Shown piece by piece: positions 1 to 6,319 of a stretch of DNA of 31,005 bases. The notes under the pieces were generated by a model, which worked only from the letters and a program-made list of their open reading frames with translations, did no database searches and was not told where the DNA came from. Every line of letters starts with the position of its first letter. Position 1 is the stretch's first letter. A program made the position numbers and the translations under genes. Source of the stretch: a virus. The stretch spans positions 1-31,005 of the IMG/VR virus record IMGVR_UViG_3300038660_000290; one strand, written 5' to 3'.

Positions 1-55
1 AAGACGCCTGATTTTGAGTCAGGAAATTTAGGTTCGATACCTAAGCGGGCATCCA
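1..55 (+). tRNA. tRNA-Gln (TTG), 5' end cut off by the window edge
   Basis: The anticodon arm is 5 bp (CCTGA/TCAGG) around loop TTTTGAG, which gives anticodon TTG. A perfect T-arm (TTAGG/CCTAA) follows, then the 3' acceptor strand GCGGGCA, base T and an encoded CCA at 53-55. The 5' acceptor strand and D-arm lie outside the window. The discriminator base T is unusual for tRNA-Gln, which normally has G, so the identity is less sure than the presence of a tRNA. Confidence 0.75.
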
Positions 56-62
56 ATATCAT

Positions 63-140
63 TGCGGGGCGTAGCAGAATGGTGATGCATCAGACTTTGA
101 ATCTGATTTTTGGGAGGTTCGATTCCTTCCCCCGCAGCCA
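63..140 (+). tRNA. tRNA-Gln (TTG)
   Basis: A full cloverleaf is visible: acceptor TGCGGGG/CCCCGCA, anticodon stem TCAGA/TCTGA with loop CTTTGAA (anticodon TTG), T-loop TTCGATT, discriminator G and encoded CCA. U1 and G73 agree with bacterial tRNA-Gln. It lies 7 bases downstream of the first tRNA and 6 bases upstream of tRNA-Lys, so the three are probably one transcript. Confidence 0.93.
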
Positions 141-146
141 AACAAT

Positions 147-222
147 GCACCGGTAGCTCAGTGGTCAGAGCGGTGGGCTTTTAACCCGCGCGTCCGGGGT
201 TCGAATCCCCGCCGGTACACCA
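147..222 (+). tRNA. tRNA-Lys (TTT)
   Basis: Acceptor GCACCGG pairs with CCGGTAC with one C-A mismatch. The D-arm is standard. The anticodon stem GTGGG/CCCGC encloses CTTTTAA, giving anticodon TTT. The T-arm CGGGG/CCCCG is perfect and CCA is encoded at 220-222. Confidence 0.93.
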
Positions 223-239
223 AAATCGTTTCAAGGTGC

Positions 240-268
240 TTGCTTCTCGTTTCAGAATTGCTTAGTTT
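240..268 (+). promoter_or_regulatory. Weak sigma70-like promoter candidate upstream of the 71-residue gene
   Basis: TTGCTT (240-245) and TAGTTT (263-268) are separated by 17 bases in the 90-base gap between tRNA-Lys and the first CDS. Both hexamers are poor matches to consensus, so this is a candidate only. Its spacing equals that of the better promoters elsewhere in the window. Confidence 0.25.
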
Positions 269-312
269 ACGTTTCACGTACAAAGCGAATCACTCCAATG
301 AAGGAAGTTACC

Positions 313-528
313 ATGTCAGACCAAGACCAAAGCAATGGCGTTCTCGGCCAAGTCGTAAACGCTATCAACAAAGACAAGCGCGAAGCCCTCAAGAAGGAAC
401 TTCGTGGAAAGATCACCGAATACCGCAAGGCGCAGGGCGCGGCGGATGTGATCCTCGACGACATCGTCACCACACTGACGGAAGCCGGTGAGAGCGCCGA
501 CGGCATCGCCGAGCTTCTCAAAAGCTGA
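313..528 (+). CDS. Hypothetical small helical protein (71 aa)
   Basis: The product is a short, highly charged, mostly helical protein with no signal peptide or membrane segment. I do not recognise a family. The start at 313 is preferred over an in-frame ATG at 298 because AAGGAAG (301-307) sits 5 bases upstream of 313 as a good ribosome binding site, and the 298 start would overlap it. The middle is basic (KDKREALKKELRGK) and the C-terminus acidic. The stop codon overlaps the start of the next gene by one base (TGATG), so the two are probably co-translated. It lies just after three tRNA genes; no function can be given. Confidence 0.7.
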   Translation: MSDQDQSNGVLGQVVNAINKDKREALKKELRGKITEYRKAQGAADVILDDIVTTLTEAGESADGIAELLKS

Positions 529-1379
529 TGGCCAAACCCTTTCCCGAAGTTGACTGGTCCGCGATTGAATCGCGGTACCTGACCCTACTTCGGGATCGGG
601 ACCCAGAAGAATTCCGTAAAATGTATCTCGGCGACTGGACGACCAATCCCCACATCCCAGAACACCACGTGGTATCGGTCAAGCCTTGCGCCAGAAAGTG
701 GGACTTTACAATGCCACCTCTTGAAGAAATAGCCCGTCACCATGACGTTTCCCCGACCGGTCGCTGGATGAACCCGCACGAGAAATTGAAGTTAGGGAAT
801 CCCTGCTCCGAGATCATCGCGAATCCACCGACCATTGAAGGCCACAAGATTCACCGCAGGCATCTGGTGTCGCTCACGTACGACGAGGATGATGGAACAA
901 TGTACTTCGAACAGAAGGCATGCTCCACCAATCCAGAGATTTCGTTTGGCCCGCTGACGTGTAGCCTTAGCAGGCTCATGAACCAAGAACACTACTGGCT
1001 CGACGCACAGGTCAGCCGCCGCGCGCGGGACTGGCGGTCGCCAGCCAAAGCGCGCATATACCTGACCAACGGTATCGTGCGGTACAAAGTTGCCACGGCA
1101 GACTGGGACGACATCCAGAGTGTCGCACGAATTGGCGGTGGATATGATCTCGCGGACCACATCAACAACGGGCTGAACCTCGTTCGTGCATGCTCTTCGA
1201 TGCCCATCATCCAAGAAGTGCACGTGGTCGATGAACGTGATCCATTTGATGTGATCACTGAACGGTACAAGAAGCCCAAGCGGGCAAAGAATCCAGACGT
1301 ACCCCTTCCGGGCACCAATCACACGCTCAAGGAAGAGGTTCGTTACCAGTTGACGGGAAAAACACCCGACCAACTTTGA
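528..1379 (+). CDS. Hypothetical protein (283 aa)
   Basis: This is a soluble 283-residue protein I do not recognise. It begins at an ATG overlapping the stop of the preceding small gene, and no separate strong ribosome binding site is seen, which suggests translational coupling. Near residues 25-37 it has a segment (DPEEFRKMYLGDW) resembling a short motif in the tails of some large terminases, but the rest shows no ATPase or nuclease signature, so I do not call it a terminase. The C-terminal third is rich in basic residues and prolines. It is followed by a 7-bp hairpin and tRNA-Arg. Confidence 0.75.
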   Translation: MAKPFPEVDWSAIESRYLTLLRDRDPEEFRKMYLGDWTTNPHIPEHHVVSVKPCARKWDFTMPPLEEIARHHDVSPTGRWMNPHEKLKLGNPCSEIIANPPTIEGHKIHRRHLVSLTYDEDDGTMYFEQKACSTNPEISFGPLTCSLSRLMNQEHYWLDAQVSRRARDWRSPAKARIYLTNGIVRYKVATADWDDIQSVARIGGGYDLADHINNGLNLVRACSSMPIIQEVHVVDERDPFDVITERYKKPKRAKNPDVPLPGTNHTLKEEVRYQLTGKTPDQL

Positions 1380-1406
1380 TCTGCCTCTGTCCATCATCTC
1401 CCTGAT

Positions 1407-1428
1407 GTGATATACAGAAGCATATCAC
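1407..1428 (+). repeat. Hairpin directly upstream of tRNA-Arg
   Basis: GTGATAT (1407-1413) and ATATCAC (1422-1428) form a perfect 7-bp inverted repeat with an 8-base loop. It ends exactly one base before the first base of tRNA-Arg. It could be a tRNA-processing signal or weak terminator for the upstream gene; no T-run follows. Confidence 0.5.
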
Positions 1429-1504
1429 GCTTCCGTAGCTCAGTGGACAGAGCGCCGCCCTCCGAAGGCGGGGGTCGCAGGTTCAAATCCTGCCGGGAGC
1501 ACCA
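1429..1504 (+). tRNA. tRNA-Arg (CCG)
   Basis: Acceptor GCTTCCG/CGGGAGC pairs with one G-T. The anticodon stem CCGCC/GGCGG is perfect around CTCCGAA, giving anticodon CCG. The T-arm is GCAGG/CCTGC, the discriminator is A and CCA is encoded at 1502-1504. Confidence 0.95.
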
Positions 1505-1508
1505 ATAT

Positions 1509-1590
1509 ATGGGTGTAGTCTAATTCGCGATGGACGTGAGGCGGTCTCCAAAGCCGCTGGCAAGGGGTTCGATTCCTCACACCCATGCCA
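1509..1590 (+). tRNA. tRNA-Trp (CCA)
   Basis: Acceptor ATGGGTG/CACCCAT is perfect. The anticodon stem GCGGT/GCCGC surrounds CTCCAAA, giving anticodon CCA. G73 fits bacterial tRNA-Trp and CCA is encoded. The D region is a few bases longer than usual. Confidence 0.9.
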
Positions 1591-1606
1591 ATTAGGAGAT
1601 GGCTCA

Positions 1607-1756
1607 ATGTGTCCAGCCGGATGTAACATTGATCCCGATACCCGACTGTGTCGCGCTTGCGGCAGAACACTTCAAGCCCTTATGGACCTGCTACAGGTCC
1701 CTAAAGCCGATCAAGATCACACGGTCAATTGGCTTATCTACCACCACTATCAATGA
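1607..1756 (+). CDS. Four-cysteine miniprotein (49 aa), probable zinc ribbon
   Basis: An ORF of 49 codons between two tRNA genes encodes a protein starting MCPAGC with a second pair LCRACG at residues 15-18. The two cysteine pairs (C2/C6 and C15/C18) would suit binding of one zinc ion. The start at 1607 has AGGAG (1594-1598) 8 bases upstream. An alternative ATG at 1599 in another frame touches the same AGGAG with no spacing and gives a non-descript peptide. The stop codon TGA (1754-1756) overlaps the 5' end of the next tRNA-like gene by two bases. The function is unknown. Confidence 0.6.
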   Translation: MCPAGCNIDPDTRLCRACGRTLQALMDLLQVPKADQDHTVNWLIYHHYQ

Positions 1757-1839
1757 ACCGAGATGTTAAGACTATGACTGGGTCAGCGCCGGGCTTTTAA
1801 TCCGGTTCAAAGGGGTTCGATTCCGCCCTCGGTTCTCCA
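1755..1839 (+). tRNA. Degenerate tRNA-Lys-like gene (TTT)
   Basis: The acceptor arm GAACCGA/TCGGTTC is perfect and followed by T and CCA. The anticodon arm CCGGG/TCCGG with loop CTTTTAA gives anticodon TTT. The D-arm region is about 7 bases too long, and the T-stem around TTCGATT has mismatches, as does its register with the acceptor stem. It may be a decaying or very unusual tRNA. It shares two bases with the stop codon of the upstream miniprotein gene. Confidence 0.6.
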
Positions 1840-1843
1840 ACAC

Positions 1844-1919
1844 GCCGTCGAAGCACATGTGGATGTGCGCCTGCCCGGTAAGCAGGAGGTAGGAGGTTCA
1901 AATCCTCTCGGCGGCACCA
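1844..1919 (+). tRNA. tRNA-Thr (GGT)
   Basis: Acceptor GCCGTCG/CGGCGGC, D-stem GCAC/GTGC, anticodon stem CCTGC/GCAGG with loop CCGGTAA (anticodon GGT), T-arm GAGG/CCTC, A73 and encoded CCA form a complete cloverleaf. Confidence 0.94.
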
Positions 1920-1923
1920 TTAC

Positions 1924-2010
1924 GGAAGGTGATCTCGGCTGGTGCCGGGGACCGGTTGCTAACCGCTTCGCAGGTAACCCTGTGGGGTTCAATTCCTCCG
2001 CCTTCCGCCA
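1924..2010 (+). tRNA. tRNA-Ser (GCT)
   Basis: A class II tRNA with a long variable arm (CAGG/CCTG stem). Acceptor GGAAGGT/GCCTTCC, G73 and encoded CCA are present. The anticodon loop TTGCTAA gives GCT; the anticodon stem has one C-C mismatch. The sequence is clearly related to the tRNA-Ser at 3347. Confidence 0.92.
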
Positions 2011-2025
2011 CATAGGAGAGACCCG

Positions 2026-2343
2026 ATGACCAAGAAAGACAACAAACGTTTTGTCGTACGCCGCATCCGCCGGGCTCTGAACAACGCGGAGACCCCGCCC
2101 ACACAGGCAGGACGCGTTCTGATCCGGTGCGGGTACGGCACCGGCGCTGGACGTAAGCAGATCGACGCCCGCGACATGCGCGATGACGACGAGTACGACT
2201 TTATGTTCCTGTCTGACAGCGCCTGCTGCGGTTTCTGCTACCGGTGCCCATTTGACGTGAGCGCCGACGGCGGCGAGGGGTGGTCTTTTGAGACTGCCAA
2301 TGATATGGAACCAGCGAAACTCGGCGACCTGATCGCCGCCTGA
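2026..2343 (+). CDS. Hypothetical protein (105 aa) with a cysteine cluster
   Basis: A 105-residue soluble protein with a basic N-terminus (KRFVVRRIRRAL), an acidic middle and a cysteine cluster, CCGFCYRC, near residues 67-74 that might bind metal. I do not recognise a family. AGGAG lies 8 bases upstream of the ATG. It opens a three-gene run (2026-3299) with short spacers and good ribosome binding sites, followed by a Pth2-like gene and a YkuK-like gene, so an RNA-related role is possible but unproven. Confidence 0.75.
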   Translation: MTKKDNKRFVVRRIRRALNNAETPPTQAGRVLIRCGYGTGAGRKQIDARDMRDDDEYDFMFLSDSACCGFCYRCPFDVSADGGEGWSFETANDMEPAKLGDLIAA

Positions 2344-2359
2344 CCCGAAAGGACCCGAC

Positions 2360-2773
2360 ATGCCCGACCACCGACTTTACATCATAATGCGCACAGACCT
2401 TGCCTCAATGAATGCAGGCAAGGGAATGGCACAGGCCGCTCACGCGGCCAACGCTTTTGAATTCAACATGGACGCAGACAAGGAAGAACTGACCAAGGAC
2501 ATGCGTCAAGCATGGGCCGACTGGGGAGCTTCCACCATGCAAGGCTTCGGCACCACAATCGTGGTTGCTGCAATGGATGAACAGACGATGACCGAGGCAG
2601 TTGAACAGGCTGTCAAGCTGGGCCTGCCCGGTGAGGTCATCCACGATCCAACCTATCCGGTACGGGACGGGGGAGTAACCCACCTGCTGCCGGTAAACAC
2701 GTGCGCGTACATATTTGTCCCGGTGCCCGAAACTGCTCCGAGCCTTCTCGCACGTATGAGTCTTCGTCCCTGA
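2360..2773 (+). CDS. Pth2-family peptidyl-tRNA hydrolase-like protein
   Basis: Pth2 enzymes cleave the ester bond of peptidyl-tRNAs released by stalled ribosomes and recycle the tRNA; they are unrelated to the usual bacterial Pth1. The 137-residue product has the family layout. A first strand ends in RTDL (11-14). The conserved GK..AQ..HA motif follows at 20-29 (K21, H28). A strand TIVVAAM lies at 66-72. The C-terminal part has RDGGVTHL (102-109) and a final strand ending in VPVP, matching the D-x-G-x-T element and terminal strand of Pth2. AAGGA lies upstream of the ATG. It sits inside a 14-member tRNA array, which fits the call. The length is slightly longer than the usual ~115-120 residues. 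Confidence 0.8.
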   Translation: MPDHRLYIIMRTDLASMNAGKGMAQAAHAANAFEFNMDADKEELTKDMRQAWADWGASTMQGFGTTIVVAAMDEQTMTEAVEQAVKLGLPGEVIHDPTYPVRDGGVTHLLPVNTCAYIFVPVPETAPSLLARMSLRP

Positions 2774-2789
2774 CAGAAAGGAGTCACCC

Positions 2790-3299
2790 ATGTTGAGCGA
2801 GAAGAAGATCAACCAAATCCGTGAAGTCTTAAAGGCGTCTTCGCCGGAGTCTCGTGTCTACATCGGCAACGACTCCTCGCGGCATCGCGATAAGCAAGAC
2901 GTCTGGCACGCAACCTACACCACCGCTGTCGTCATCCACATGATCGACGAGCATGGCATGGGCCACGGCTGCCGGGTCTTCACGGAGACCCAGAAGATGG
3001 TTGACTATGACAACCACAAGAGCAAGCCGTTCACTCGGATGATGCAAGAGTGCTACTTGGCGGTCGAGGCATACCAACAACTCGAAGAGGACTTGTTGGA
3101 GCACGACGTCGAGGTCCACTTGGACATCAACAAGAGCGAGATGCACGGCTCCAACGTCGCACACAACGCGGCGGTTGGATACGCTGTCGGTGTCACAGGC
3201 CGTCCCGTAAAGACGAAGCCAGAAGCGTTCGCGGCATCCTATGTGGCTGACCACGGTGTTCGCGACAAGTTCGCGCGAGAGAACGTGACACTTCACTGA
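2790..3299 (+). CDS. RNase H-fold protein of the YkuK (DUF458) family
   Basis: The 169-residue product matches the YkuK/DUF458 family, which has a predicted RNase H-like fold and unproven nuclease activity. Visible family features are strand one with the first acidic residue (YIGNDSS, D28), a central TTAVVIH strand, an acidic strand HLDINKS (D112) and the C-terminal block KTKPEAFAAS (141-150) followed by AD (153-154). These acidic residues are placed as in RNase H-like metal centres. AAGGAG lies 7 bases before the ATG, only 16 bases after the Pth2-like gene. Probable role: processing or degradation of nucleic acid, perhaps RNA. Confidence 0.8.
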   Translation: MLSEKKINQIREVLKASSPESRVYIGNDSSRHRDKQDVWHATYTTAVVIHMIDEHGMGHGCRVFTETQKMVDYDNHKSKPFTRMMQECYLAVEAYQQLEEDLLEHDVEVHLDINKSEMHGSNVAHNAAVGYAVGVTGRPVKTKPEAFAASYVADHGVRDKFARENVTLH

Positions 3300-3304
3300 A
3301 AAAT

Positions 3305-3337
3305 CTGCACGCCGACATCCCGACCGTTGGCGTGCAG
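3305..3337 (+). terminator. Stem-loop after the YkuK-like gene
   Basis: CTGCACGCC (3305-3313) and GGCGTGCAG (3329-3337) form a perfect 9-bp stem with a 15-base loop, 5 bases after the stop codon. Only an A/T-rich stretch follows rather than a T-run, so it may be a terminator or an RNA-stabilising or processing hairpin before tRNA-Ser. Confidence 0.6.
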
Positions 3338-3346
3338 TGAAAATTT

Positions 3347-3435
3347 GGATGGTGATCCTCGCTGGTGCGGGGGTACGCTTGGAAAGCGGTTCGCCCCCGA
3401 GAGGGGGTGGGGTTCAATTCCTCCGCCATCCGCCA
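3347..3435 (+). tRNA. tRNA-Ser (GGA)
   Basis: Class II tRNA with acceptor GGATGGT/GCCATCC, G73, encoded CCA and a strong variable arm (CCCCC/GGGGG, loop GAGA). The anticodon loop TTGGAAA gives GGA. The outer anticodon stem has two mismatches. It is closely similar to tRNA-Ser(GCT) at 1924. Confidence 0.9.
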
Positions 3436-3477
3436 ATCCATGAATATGCTGCATGGCAGCATTGCAGGCGTTGGGGG

Positions 3478-3505
3478 TTGTGCAGTTGCAGCATTTTGAT
3501 AAGAT
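3478..3505 (+). promoter_or_regulatory. Candidate promoter for the DUF1127 gene
   Basis: TTGTGC (3478-3483) and TAAGAT (3500-3505) are 16 bases apart, about 30 bases upstream of the small gene at 3535. The surrounding region also holds a 7-bp hairpin, ATGCTGC/GCAGCAT (3446-3462). The match to consensus is only partial. Confidence 0.3.
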
Positions 3506-3534
3506 GCTCCTGAAATCAACCAATGGAGTATCCA

Positions 3535-3657
3535 ATGTTTTCTCGATGGTTCGCACGACGCGACACACACAATCAACTTTCCGCAATGACCAATCGCCAG
3601 CTTGCCGACATCGGCATCAACCGTGGTGACATCAAGCGGATCGTATCCGAAATGTAA
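3535..3657 (+). CDS. DUF1127 (YjiS-like) small protein, 40 aa
   Basis: The 40-residue product has the DUF1127 signature: an arginine-rich N-terminus (FSRWFARR) followed by the helix-turn pattern L..MTNRQLADIGINRGDI (from residue 15) ending IVSEM. DUF1127 proteins are common in alphaproteobacteria, and one (CcaF1 of Rhodobacter sphaeroides) has been reported to bind RNA and act in RNA maturation and turnover. GGAG lies about 6 bases upstream of the ATG. The stop codon (3655-3657) abuts the first base of tRNA-Arg at 3658. The gene is not in the size range most gene finders report. The family assignment is from the motif; the role in the phage is inference. Confidence 0.75.
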   Translation: MFSRWFARRDTHNQLSAMTNRQLADIGINRGDIKRIVSEM

Positions 3658-3728
3658 ACCCCCGCCGCTGGGACGGACAAGGTCTTCTAAGCCAAGGGTG
3701 GTGAGTTCGATTCTCACCGGGGGTGCCA
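3658..3728 (+). tRNA. tRNA-Arg (TCT)
   Basis: Acceptor ACCCCCG/CGGGGGT is perfect, T-arm GTGAG/CTCAC is perfect, G73 and CCA are present. The anticodon loop CTTCTAA gives TCT. The anticodon stem is weak (three inner pairs), and the D-arm is short, making a 71-base gene. It begins directly after the stop codon of the DUF1127 gene. Confidence 0.85.
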
Positions 3729-3733
3729 ATCGT

Positions 3734-3793
3734 AACCGGACACAATGTGTCATATATGACCCGTAAAGCCGGTTAAGGGGTCATATATGACCC
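3734..3793 (+). promoter_or_regulatory. Twin palindromes TCATATATGACCC; operator-like region or hairpin
   Basis: Two copies of TCATATATGACCC lie at 3750-3762 and 3781-3793. TCATATATGA is itself a perfect palindrome, and the first copy also pairs with GGGTCATATATGA (3778-3790) to give a 13-bp stem with a 15-base loop. Flanking pairs AACCGG/CCGGTT and GACAC/GTGTC add more symmetry. This looks like a two-site protein-binding element or an RNA hairpin between two tRNA genes. The word ATGACCCGT also occurs upstream of promoters near 6836 and 13920. Confidence 0.55.
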
Positions 3794-3796
3794 ATT

Positions 3797-3872
3797 GCTG
3801 ATGAGGCCCATGAGGATGAGCAACCGCCTCGTAAGCGGAAGGTAGCAGGTTCGATTCCTGTCATCAGCACCA
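3797..3872 (+). tRNA. tRNA-Thr (CGT)
   Basis: Acceptor GCTGATG/CATCAGC is perfect, anticodon loop CTCGTAA gives CGT with stem CCGC/GCGG, the T-arm GCAGG/CCTGT is good, A73 and encoded CCA are present. Confidence 0.93.
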
Positions 3873-3931
3873 ACTTAATGTCGCCTCTGTTATACATTAA
3901 CCTCGGTTATGTAGCACGAAGCCTACATTAC

Positions 3932-4006
3932 GCCCTGCAAGCATTGACGGTGATGCAATAGTCTTGTAAGCTATGGAACTGAGTTCAAGTCTCAGGTAGG
4001 GCTCCA
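3932..4006 (+). tRNA. tRNA-Thr (TGT)
   Basis: Acceptor GCCCTGC/GTAGGGC, D-stem GCAT/ATGC, anticodon stem ATAGT/GCTAT with loop CTTGTAA (anticodon TGT), and T-stem CTGAG/CTCAG give a full cloverleaf. CCA is encoded at 4004-4006, and its final A is the first base of the start codon of the HNH gene. An inverted repeat ATGTAG/CTACAT precedes it at 3909-3928. Confidence 0.92.
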
Positions 4007-4404
4007 TGATTTGTACAAAATGCGAAGAGAATTTCCATCCGACCCCAACACAGTGCCGGGCGTTGTGTAAGGTATGCACGCGGTCGTACAACAATGCCTA
4101 TTATGCAAAAAATAAAAAACGCCGCGAAGCCGTGTGGAAATCTACACAAAACCGTATATCCAAAATGCTGTTGGAAATTTCGGATTACAAACGTCAGGCT
4201 TCTTGCAAGTTCTGTAAGGAGTCTGAGCCAGTTTGTCTGGACCTACACCACCTCGATCCAACCAATAAAGACGCAACAGTCAGCCGGATGGTGAGCGACA
4301 ATCGCCCAGCACAGCTTATTTGGCGTGAAGTTTCAAAGTGCATTGTTGTGTGCAAAAATTGCCATTCTAAGGTTCATGCAGGATTATTGCATTGCTCCAA
4401 TTAA
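4006..4404 (+). CDS. HNH endonuclease with zinc-binding cysteines
   Basis: The 132-residue product has an N-terminal cysteine set (C3/C6, C17, C21/C24) like a small zinc finger and a C-terminal HNH nuclease domain. That domain has CKFC (67-70), LHHLDP (80-85) with the catalytic-type HH, and CKNCHSKVH (116-124), the final C..CH...H of HNH enzymes. HNH proteins nick or cut DNA and are often homing or packaging enzymes in phages. The start ATG uses the last A of the CCA of tRNA-Thr, and the stop TAA abuts tRNA-Pro, so the gene exactly fills the gap between two tRNAs. It is visibly more A/T-rich than its neighbours, suggesting recent transfer. No good ribosome binding site is seen upstream. Confidence 0.8.
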   Translation: MICTKCEENFHPTPTQCRALCKVCTRSYNNAYYAKNKKRREAVWKSTQNRISKMLLEISDYKRQASCKFCKESEPVCLDLHHLDPTNKDATVSRMVSDNRPAQLIWREVSKCIVVCKNCHSKVHAGLLHCSN

Positions 4405-4476
4405 CAGGGTATGTTCTGGTGGCGGCGTGGGCTTTGGAAGCTTGCTGATCGGGTTCGATCCCCGGTACCCTGACCA
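4405..4476 (+). tRNA. tRNA-Pro (TGG)
   Basis: Acceptor CAGGGTA/TACCCTG, A73 and CCA are present. The C1-G72 pair fits bacterial tRNA-Pro. Anticodon loop TTTGGAA gives TGG; the anticodon stem TGGGC/GCTTG relies on three G-T pairs. The T-arm has loop TTCGATC. Confidence 0.9.
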
Positions 4477-4495
4477 TTATGCGCGTGAGCGCAGA

Positions 4496-4571
4496 CAGTG
4501 TATAGCTCAGTTGGTAGAGTGTCGGTCTGGGAGGCCGAAGGTCGCAGGTTCGAGCCCTGTTACACTGACCA
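4496..4571 (+). tRNA. tRNA-Pro (GGG)
   Basis: Acceptor CAGTGTA/TACACTG, standard D-arm, anticodon stem TCGGT/GCCGA with loop CTGGGAG (anticodon GGG), T-arm, A73 and encoded CCA make a complete tRNA-Pro. It is the last tRNA of the island. Confidence 0.95.
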
Positions 4572-4624
4572 ATCCAAAACGTTCAGAACAACCAAGCAAT
4601 GTCAACCGTCTCGACCGCATGCTA

Positions 4625-4653
4625 TTGACATGTGCCCTTTTGTTTGAGATTGT
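4625..4653 (+). promoter_or_regulatory. Candidate promoter for the portal gene
   Basis: A consensus -35 box TTGACA (4625-4630) is followed after 17 bases by GATTGT (4648-4653), a weak -10. The word ATGTGCC follows the -35 box directly, as in the spacers of promoters at 22729 and 24112. The predicted transcription start would fall at about the portal ATG. Confidence 0.4.
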
Positions 4654-4660
4654 GTCGCTC

Positions 4661-6319
4661 ATGAGCACATCAGTACCAAATCCCACAACACGCGCACAAT
4701 TGGCAGTGCCATACCGCGCGTCGCCCATCCTGCACCCGGATTACATTTACTGGTCCGGTGAGTGGGAGAAGATTCGTGACGCCGAAGTAGGCGAGATCGA
4801 GGTCAAGCGTAAGCGGGAGAAATACCTGCCGAAAATGGCGACGCACGACAAGAACCAGTACGAGGCATATCTGCACCGTGCCGTGTTCTTCAACATGACG
4901 TCGCGTACCTTGAACGCCCTCTACGGAACCGTGTTCCGTCGCGCACCCAAGGTCACCGGGCTGACGCCCACTCTTACCGAAAAAGTCAAGAAGCTTACCA
5001 AGGAAGGCATGTCCCTTCACCTGATGACAAAGACGTCCGTCAAGGAAGTCCTTGCCGTCGGTCGGTACGGCATGCTTGTCGATGCGAATCCTGACGGGGC
5101 CGGAGATGCCTACGTCGCTTGCTACACCGCCGAGAACATTCTCGACTGGGAGATGGCAGAGATCAATGGGCGCTGGCAGCTTGCCAAAGTTACGTTGCGT
5201 GAAATTTACTACGACCGTGATGGACACTGGTCGCCATACGAGCACAAGTCCCGGTTCCGCATTTTGATGCTGAACGACGTGGACGGTGAGATCACCTACG
5301 AACAATTCATCTACGAAGACATTGACGCACACAACATCCCCGACATCGACCAGATGCCGGATCGAATTGTCACGCCCGAAGTACGCGGGCAAGTCCTCGA
5401 CTACATTCCGTTCATCGTGATTGGGCCGTTCACCAACTACCCAGACGTTCAGAAGCCACCGATGCTGGACATCGTCACTCTGAACTATTCCCACTACATG
5501 TCATACGCACAGTTGGAGCACGGGCGCTTCTACACCGGGAACCCGGTATACTACGCTCAGAATGATTCGGCTGTGACACCCGGCGATTACCACGTCGGGC
5601 CAGACGTGGTTTGGATTCTGGACAAGGGTGAACAGGCCGGGATCATCGAATTCAACGGTGCCGGTCTCCGGTTCCTTGAAAACGCACTGTCCTCGAAAGA
5701 GGCGCAGATCGCATCCCTTGGCGGGCGAATGATGCCGGGCTCTTCTCGCGGCGCGGCAGAAAGTGACAATTCGTTGCTCATGCAAGAGCGCAACGAACAG
5801 ACCCTGCTGTTGAACCTCGCCGATACCACGGACGAGGGCGTCACACAGATTCTTCGATGGTGGGCTGACTGGAACAACGTCAACCCATCCGTTGTATCAA
5901 AGATCACATTCGAATTGAACCGGGACTTCCTGATCAAGGATGCTGGCGCGCGCGAGTTCCGCGCAATCCACCAGATGTATGCCGACGGCGTCATCCCGGT
6001 CGAGGTGGTCTACGATTATCTCAAGCGTTTCGAAGTCATACCGGAGTGGATGGAGCGAGAAGAGTACCTTGGCCTTCTTGAAGACAGCAAGCAGTTCCCG
6101 AACATGGTGGACGTGCTGGCGAAGATGCAAAGTTTCCCTGACGCCAAGTCGATGCTGGAATACAAGGTTATGCAAGAGACAGCGCAGGCGGTGAAGCCGA
6201 CCACGAACGAACCGGCGCAGCCCGGCGTCCCGAAGCAAGCCCGTGCCGCGCAGCAGGTTGACAATCCTCCGAAGAAGGAAGAAGAGGACGAAGAAGAGCA
6301 AGGTTCTTCCGATGAATGA
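4661..6319 (+). CDS. Portal protein, DUF4055 family
   Basis: The 552-residue product matches DUF4055 phage portal-type proteins, which form the 12-fold ring at the capsid vertex through which DNA enters and leaves. Visible features are the N-terminal block around PDYIYWSGEWEKIRDAEVG, the YLPKM and RTLNALYGTVFRRAP segments (about residues 32-95), an alpha/beta core, and a charged C-terminal tail ending in an acidic run. The length fits the family. I chose ATG 4661 because the protein homology begins there. No ribosome binding site precedes it; an in-frame ATG at 4619 is possible but also lacks one. The start of the next gene overlaps its end by 8 bases. Position at the head of the structural genes fits a portal. 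Confidence 0.85.
   Translation: MSTSVPNPTTRAQLAVPYRASPILHPDYIYWSGEWEKIRDAEVGEIEVKRKREKYLPKMATHDKNQYEAYLHRAVFFNMTSRTLNALYGTVFRRAPKVTGLTPTLTEKVKKLTKEGMSLHLMTKTSVKEVLAVGRYGMLVDANPDGAGDAYVACYTAENILDWEMAEINGRWQLAKVTLREIYYDRDGHWSPYEHKSRFRILMLNDVDGEITYEQFIYEDIDAHNIPDIDQMPDRIVTPEVRGQVLDYIPFIVIGPFTNYPDVQKPPMLDIVTLNYSHYMSYAQLEHGRFYTGNPVYYAQNDSAVTPGDYHVGPDVVWILDKGEQAGIIEFNGAGLRFLENALSSKEAQIASLGGRMMPGSSRGAAESDNSLLMQERNEQTLLLNLADTTDEGVTQILRWWADWNNVNPSVVSKITFELNRDFLIKDAGAREFRAIHQMYADGVIPVEVVYDYLKRFEVIPEWMEREEYLGLLEDSKQFPNMVDVLAKMQSFPDAKSMLEYKVMQETAQAVKPTTNEPAQPGVPKQARAAQQVDNPPKKEEEDEEEQGSSDE

Follow-up and report, generated by a model that had tools for sequence, protein, structure and literature searches.

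A Pth2-fold protein from a phage-only clade, paired with a DUF458 nuclease-family gene in the tRNA array of a DSS3P8-like phage

Peptidyl-tRNA hydrolases of the PTH2 family have been published for jumbo phages, along with a proposed role in ribosome rescue and tRNA recycling through the freeing of cleaved peptidyl-tRNA (PMC7824862), as well as for phage RaK2 (PMC3622015), and Erythrobacter phage L02 has been described as carrying a peptidyl-tRNA hydrolase (PMC9127768). Several deposited records of DSS3P8-like phages, those of DSS3_MAL1, RpAliso, and RcXuper among them, already carry the annotation peptidyl-tRNA hydrolase. Phage Pth2 is already known as a kind, the recycling and rescue idea included. 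In the excerpted text of PMC3985635, the YkuK/DUF458 family is described only as a predicted RNase H-like nuclease family, and the DUF458 literature in one open-access collection, mainly titles and abstracts, contained no link to phage tRNA arrays.

We examined a stretch of 31,005 nucleotides (the window), which is the complete 31-kb record of a virus and itself a fragment of a DSS3P8-like Roseobacter phage. Its portal protein shares 59-65% identity with those of the Roseobacter-group phages DSS3P8, vB_RpoS-V10, DSS3_MAL1, MD18, RpAliso, and RcXuper, and we assign the source, by sequence, to marine bacterial viruses of the DSS3P8-like Roseobacter phage type. ARAGORN identified eight tRNA genes between positions 63 and 4571. 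The tRNA genes of the array all lie on the + strand, the same strand as pth2, which they flank on both sides, and tRNA-Ser(GCT) and tRNA-Ser(GGA) bracket the pth2 block. A T-loop word search of the window returned nine matches, all on the + strand, compared to 0.8 expected, and CCA is encoded in the clear tRNA genes. The features of this region are as follows:

1..52, +, 3' portion of a tRNA that the contig start interrupts (truncated Rfam tRNA hit of 25.9 bits, under the gathering score)
63..140, +, tRNA-Gln(TTG) (ARAGORN, Rfam)
147..222, +, tRNA-Lys(TTT) (ARAGORN, Rfam)
1429..1504, +, tRNA-Arg(CCG) (ARAGORN, Rfam)
1509..1590, +, tRNA-Trp(CCA) (Rfam 30.8 bits; ARAGORN mt mode)
1757..1839, +, possible tRNA-Lys(TTT), weak (ARAGORN mt mode only)
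1844..1919, +, tRNA-Thr(GGT) (ARAGORN, Rfam)
1923..2009, +, tRNA-Ser(GCT) with a long variable arm (Rfam tRNA-Sec/class II 45.5 bits; ARAGORN mt mode, gct)
2026..2343, +, small ORF 5' of pth2, 105 aa, SD-like AGGAG, without a family match
2360..2773, +, pth2, ATG at 2360 and stop ending at 2773, 137 aa, SD-like AAAGGA upstream
2790..3299, +, DUF458/YkuK RNase H-like gene, 169 aa, 16 nt past the pth2 stop (phrog_11311)
3346..3434, +, tRNA-Ser(GGA) with a long variable arm (Rfam class II 45.5 bits; permissive ARAGORN)
3657..3728, +, possible tRNA, weak (anticodon TCT (Arg) or AAG (Leu), by ARAGORN mode)
3797..3872, +, tRNA-Thr(CGT) (ARAGORN, Rfam)
3932..4006, +, tRNA-Thr(TGT) (ARAGORN, Rfam)
4405..4476, +, tRNA-Pro(TGG) (ARAGORN)
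4496..4571, +, tRNA-Pro(GGG) (ARAGORN, Rfam)
4325..6319, +, portal protein ORF, closing the tRNA array (phrog_145 match, residues 137-597)

The portal ORF probably begins downstream of the listed start at 4325, from which it would overlap the tRNA-Pro genes. It was noted that standard ARAGORN settings overlook approximately six likely tRNA genes of the array (window 1-4571), including both tRNA-Ser genes. A CxxC-rich, HNH-like ORF at 4006-4404, for which no Pfam match was obtained, has an ATG that shares the last base of the CCA end of tRNA-Thr(TGT). Neither sigma-70 promoters nor terminators were more numerous in the array than in shuffled sequence.

The locus was then compared with its closest relatives. 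All six named DSS3P8-like phages carry a Pth2 gene with a DUF458 gene directly 3' of it, and in the five whose annotation was examined the two genes sit within a group of tRNA genes, a short way 5' of the portal gene. The placement of the gene inside a tRNA array, as first reported in a preliminary description of this DNA, is shared by those DSS3P8-like reference phages that were examined. The Pth2 proteins of these phages share 44-56% identity with that of the window, and the pth2-DUF458 order stays fixed while nearby ORFs turn over. A nucleotidyltransferase gene heads the DSS3P8-like arrays (four loci; 2-904 in one of them) and is annotated in RpAliso as a tRNA nucleotidyltransferase. We did not retain this gene as a CCA-adding enzyme, as its Pfam match was a weak one to RlaP (RNA repair), below the cut-off.

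The pth2 coordinates are exact, and the frame is open across 137 codons. The preliminary description had called this a Pth2-type gene, which was borne out by the PF01981 (PTH2) search (42.8 bits, E 6.8e-11, gathering cut-off 23); PTH2 matches were also found in 11/11 aligned phage relatives, and PHROG 1866, listed with unknown function, matches the window protein at 3.8e-23. It had also held that Pth2 is atypical for bacteria, and we found PTH2 missing from 10/10 bacterial control genomes and present in 4/4 archaeal ones. The window protein falls below both NCBIfam Pth2 equivalog cut-offs (NF003314, 39.8 vs 126; TIGR00283, 30.7 vs 82). The canonical Pth2 of phiM19 clears one of these cut-offs, but the RaK2 Pth2 also fails, which makes equivalog failure alone a weak argument. 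Taken with placement in a separate clade and co-occurrence with canonical Pth2, both described below, the cut-offs nonetheless mark the window protein as no plain Pth2 orthologue in its sequence relationships.

Of the two motifs that had been taken as the Pth2 layout, one was confirmed. The GK..AQ..HA motif (GKGMAQAAHA, residues 20-29) is a true Pth2 signature, whereas RDGGVTHL (residues 102-109) is present but is not favoured as the catalytic motif, as the Pth2 catalytic Asp pairs in every profile alignment with D96, N-terminal of it; one pairwise alignment instead matches RDGGVT to RDAGLT. RDGGVTHL sits in a hairpin with approximately seven extra residues in this phage family. In the profile alignments K21 pairs with K18 and D96 with D86 of Sulfolobus Pth2, whose archaeal numbering and catalytic roles we take to be those of Fromant et al. 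2005. Among 85 distinct phage proteins, R11, D13, G20, H28, G64, D96, Y99, and G104 are invariant and K21 (84/85), Q25, D103, T114, and F119 almost so; from the near-invariance of K21, D96, H28, G64, and Y99, the active-site region seems to be under strong purifying selection. The equivalent of T90 varies among the phage proteins, and that of T98 falls on T114 in some alignments and on C115 in others, the register C-terminal of the hairpin being uncertain. The subfamily, with its long active-site hairpin, is marked by K21, D96, D-x-x-Y-P-x-x-D-G, and T114-C115.

Structure prediction, proposed earlier as a check, agreed with the family assignment. An AlphaFold2 model built from 63 viral sequences reached a mean pLDDT of 96.4, and Foldseek at E<=0.001 returned Pth2 structures only. 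VIA-align superposed the model on S. solfataricus Pth2 (1xty) with a Z of 17.1 and an rmsd of 1.7 Å over 119 residues, and the top six solved structures were all Pth2 entries (Z 15.4-17.1). Less closely related in fold was the DUF2000 protein Atu0240 (2gax; Z 10.3), and structures outside the Pth2/DUF2000 fold scored approximately 3. By this model, the window protein has the predicted fold of Pth2.

The hairpin joining the last two strands is approximately seven residues longer than in archaeal Pth2. In a tree built without the hairpin columns, 28/28 long-hairpin proteins fell on one side of a branch with support 99/98, with archaeal and canonical phage Pth2 opposite; the window Pth2 is accordingly placed, at the sequence level, in a separate phage-only clade with a changed active-site hairpin. 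The Pth2 gene of Erythrobacter phage L02 also belongs to this clade. A search with the phage profile recovered 106 viral loci. Among 84,980 species of bacteria and archaea the same profile recovered no more than seven relatives, all distant archaeal ones, in a scan that relies on short conserved peptides and that some relatives may escape. A recent acquisition of pth2 from a bacterial host was not supported, as within this short-peptide scan the profile gave no bacterial relative and distant archaeal Pth2 only. The long-hairpin type and a canonical Pth2 occur together in phiM19 (and phiM19-type phages), Atu_ph07, and Phosso, and the latter two carry a third PTH2 paralogue; the hairpins of the paralogues differ at the active site. 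Since these three phages hold both types, the two may do different jobs and may be non-redundant. It was also noted that NAD-salvage genes (NMN adenylyltransferase, nicotinate or nicotinamide phosphoribosyltransferase) lie within a few kb of the long-hairpin pth2 in Erythrobacter phages L02 and XM05 and Sinorhizobium phage phiM19.

We assessed how far the linkage to tRNA genes extends among the long-hairpin relatives. Arrays, counted as at least four tRNA genes within 3 kb of pth2, surround the gene in 18 of 84 distinct relatives; a further 8 have between one and three tRNA genes at this distance and the other 58 none, so that a general claim of long-hairpin Pth2 genes lying in tRNA arrays was discarded. 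The array state requires three changes on the tree, which makes array placement essentially the trait of one clade. The earlier use of the location as a hint at recycling of the phage's own tRNAs does not extend to the relatives in general. All 16 full phage records with the long-hairpin type carry 10-57 tRNA genes. Two relatives without this type have 23 and 25 tRNA genes, and tRNA richness alone cannot explain the gene. Richness in tRNA genes accompanies the long-hairpin gene, while adjacency to them mostly does not.

The stronger linkage belongs to the neighbouring gene. The product of 2790..3299 matches PF04308 at 60.5 bits (cut-off 25), and its putative active-site residues D28, E87, D112, and D154 are intact and invariant in alignments. 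The best structural matches of its AlphaFold2 model (pLDDT 90.7) are mostly RNase H-like proteins (Z 6.4-8.4). At least three tRNA genes were present within 3 kb at 18/18 pth2 loci with DUF458 at most 1 kb away, compared to 1/66 without it (Fisher p 2e-17 for pth2 loci with enough context; the loci share ancestry and are phylogenetically non-independent). A separate DUF458 scan, biased toward query-like sequences, found tRNA genes in 76 of the best 80 viral loci, often 10-50 nt away; in these best 80, all 1099 tRNAs (1099/1099) were on the same strand, and tRNA density fell from 2.1 to 0.5 per kb across 8 kb. Among representatives at 85% identity, 31/33 loci had tRNA genes and 21/33 lay within 100 nt of one. 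DUF458 lies in arrays that lack an adjoining Pth2 in Stenotrophomonas phage DLP_6 and Xanthomonas phage X1, and in Rhizobium phage RHph_I1_18 it lies near genes for a CCA-transferase, Thg1, an RNA ligase, and a polynucleotide kinase. Inspection of the Vibrio phage phiKT1024 and Synechococcus phage BUCT-ZZ01 loci showed no tRNAs near DUF458. DUF458 is a partner that tracks tRNA arrays and is better linked to them than pth2 itself. The self-contained tRNA supply and recycling module envisaged in the preliminary description had omitted this predicted nuclease gene.

The reading we prefer, at about even confidence, is that the protein recycles peptidyl-tRNA as a Pth2-fold tRNA ester hydrolase and is paired with DUF458 in tRNA upkeep. 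The hydrolase, presumably active and in the usual Pth2 dimer, would probably act on tRNAs that dropped off or jammed while a large phage is being heavily translated, clearing their 3' end of the peptide or of some other N-blocked acyl group, and the freed tRNAs, from the phage's own set (approximately 30 in relatives) and from the host, would go back to use. Judged by spacing, strand, and SD sites, pth2 and DUF458 are probably co-transcribed in DSS3P8-like phages, and the gene neighbourhood suggests tRNA, or fragments of it, as what the predicted nuclease trims, processes, or clears. Co-transcription with a tRNA-acting nuclease, both as proposed, would make the two genes a tRNA-upkeep pair inside the array. 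This recycling role is supported by the PTH2 match, the Pth2-fold model, the conservation of K21 and D96, the conserved pth2-DUF458 pair, and the tRNA-rich records. It is weakened by the missed equivalog cut-offs, the non-conserved T90, and the register-dependent T98, and also by the distance of most members from tRNA genes and the existence of tRNA-rich phages without this gene type. The host, moreover, would be expected to own a Pth1 already.

The extra hairpin residues and the co-existence with canonical Pth2 suggest a substrate range shifted relative to cellular Pth2. It is possible, though somewhat unlikely, that the enzyme mainly undoes host attack on charged tRNA instead of hydrolysing peptidyl-tRNA, with acetyl-aminoacyl-tRNA from GNAT toxins or peptide-bearing tRNA fragments after anticodon cleavage as candidate substrates. 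Such a shift would fit the clade-specific hairpin residues that adjoin the active-site Asp, the failure at both equivalog cut-offs, and the additional canonical Pth2 of phiM19-type phages, Atu_ph07, and Phosso, with the third paralogue of the latter two, although timing or dosage could also keep the paralogues. In mycobacteria, acetylation by TacT is undone by Pth1 (PMC9241777). A loss of hydrolase function, leaving a Pth2-fold tRNA- or protein-binding factor, appears very improbable: T90 is not conserved and the T98 register is uncertain, but the active-site Lys and Asp are practically invariant across 85 divergent proteins. Non-catalytic roles have been proposed for human Bit1/PTRH2, which offers a parallel for a non-hydrolase.

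The pair could also be array cargo, small genes in an insertion-tolerant tRNA region that are functionally unconnected to the array tRNAs. Unrelated small ORFs and the CxxC/HNH-like ORF lie between tRNA genes as well, and the array location belongs to one clade, with pth2 elsewhere far from tRNA genes. However, the pair order is kept despite the turnover of neighbouring ORFs, DUF458 also neighbours tRNA genes in unrelated phages, and the association of 18/18 against 1/66, phylogenetically non-independent as it is, runs the same way; we consider cargo unlikely. A broader proposal, which we regard as rather doubtful, is that large phages hold two or three PTH2-fold tRNA deacylases with distinct substrates, and that the long-hairpin clade and DUF458 would form a tRNA quality-control or counter-defence pair, with the nuclease acting on damaged tRNA, by processing or removal, and the hydrolase releasing acylated tRNA or fragments beyond the reach of Pth1 and Pth2.

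It is a long-standing question why large phages maintain tRNA genes by the dozen, and host attacks on tRNA have recently been implicated. The conserved hydrolase-nuclease pair in the array provides two concrete, testable candidates for tRNA-care proteins, and with canonical and long-hairpin Pth2 present in one and the same phage, specialisation for substrates can be tested directly. The link between DUF458 and phage tRNA genes is, to our knowledge and within the open-access literature of one collection, the first pointer to a function of this uncharacterised nuclease family.

As far as checked, three things are new: the clade with the long hairpin, its occurrence beside canonical Pth2, and the link of DUF458 to tRNA genes. 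Archaeal and eukaryotic Pth2 (PF01981; 1xty, P. horikoshii 1wn2, A. fulgidus 3erj, and human Bit1 1q7s) have the fold in common with the window model (Z 15-17, 113-119 residues aligned), together with the GK..AQ..HA helix and the K18 and D86 equivalents. The window protein differs from them by approximately seven extra residues in the beta3-beta4 hairpin and one in the beta1-alpha1 loop, and its clade by the loss of T90 and a nearly invariant TC in the last strand, at 18-25% identity. The canonical phage Pth2 proteins (phiM12/phiM19 'peptidyl-tRNA hydrolase', Myrna gp36, RaK2 ORF188, and XacN1) are likewise PTH2 proteins of large phages within PHROG 1866; unlike the window clade, they keep D-[AES]-G-x-T (divergent in RaK2) and group with archaeal Pth2. 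The neighbouring gene is a member of DUF458/YkuK (PF04308) that retains the D, E, D, and D residues. The DSS3P8-like Pth2 genes (DSS3_MAL1, RpAliso, and RcXuper) represent the same gene, with the same pre-portal array position and the same DUF458 neighbour, and differ from that of the window by identity only.
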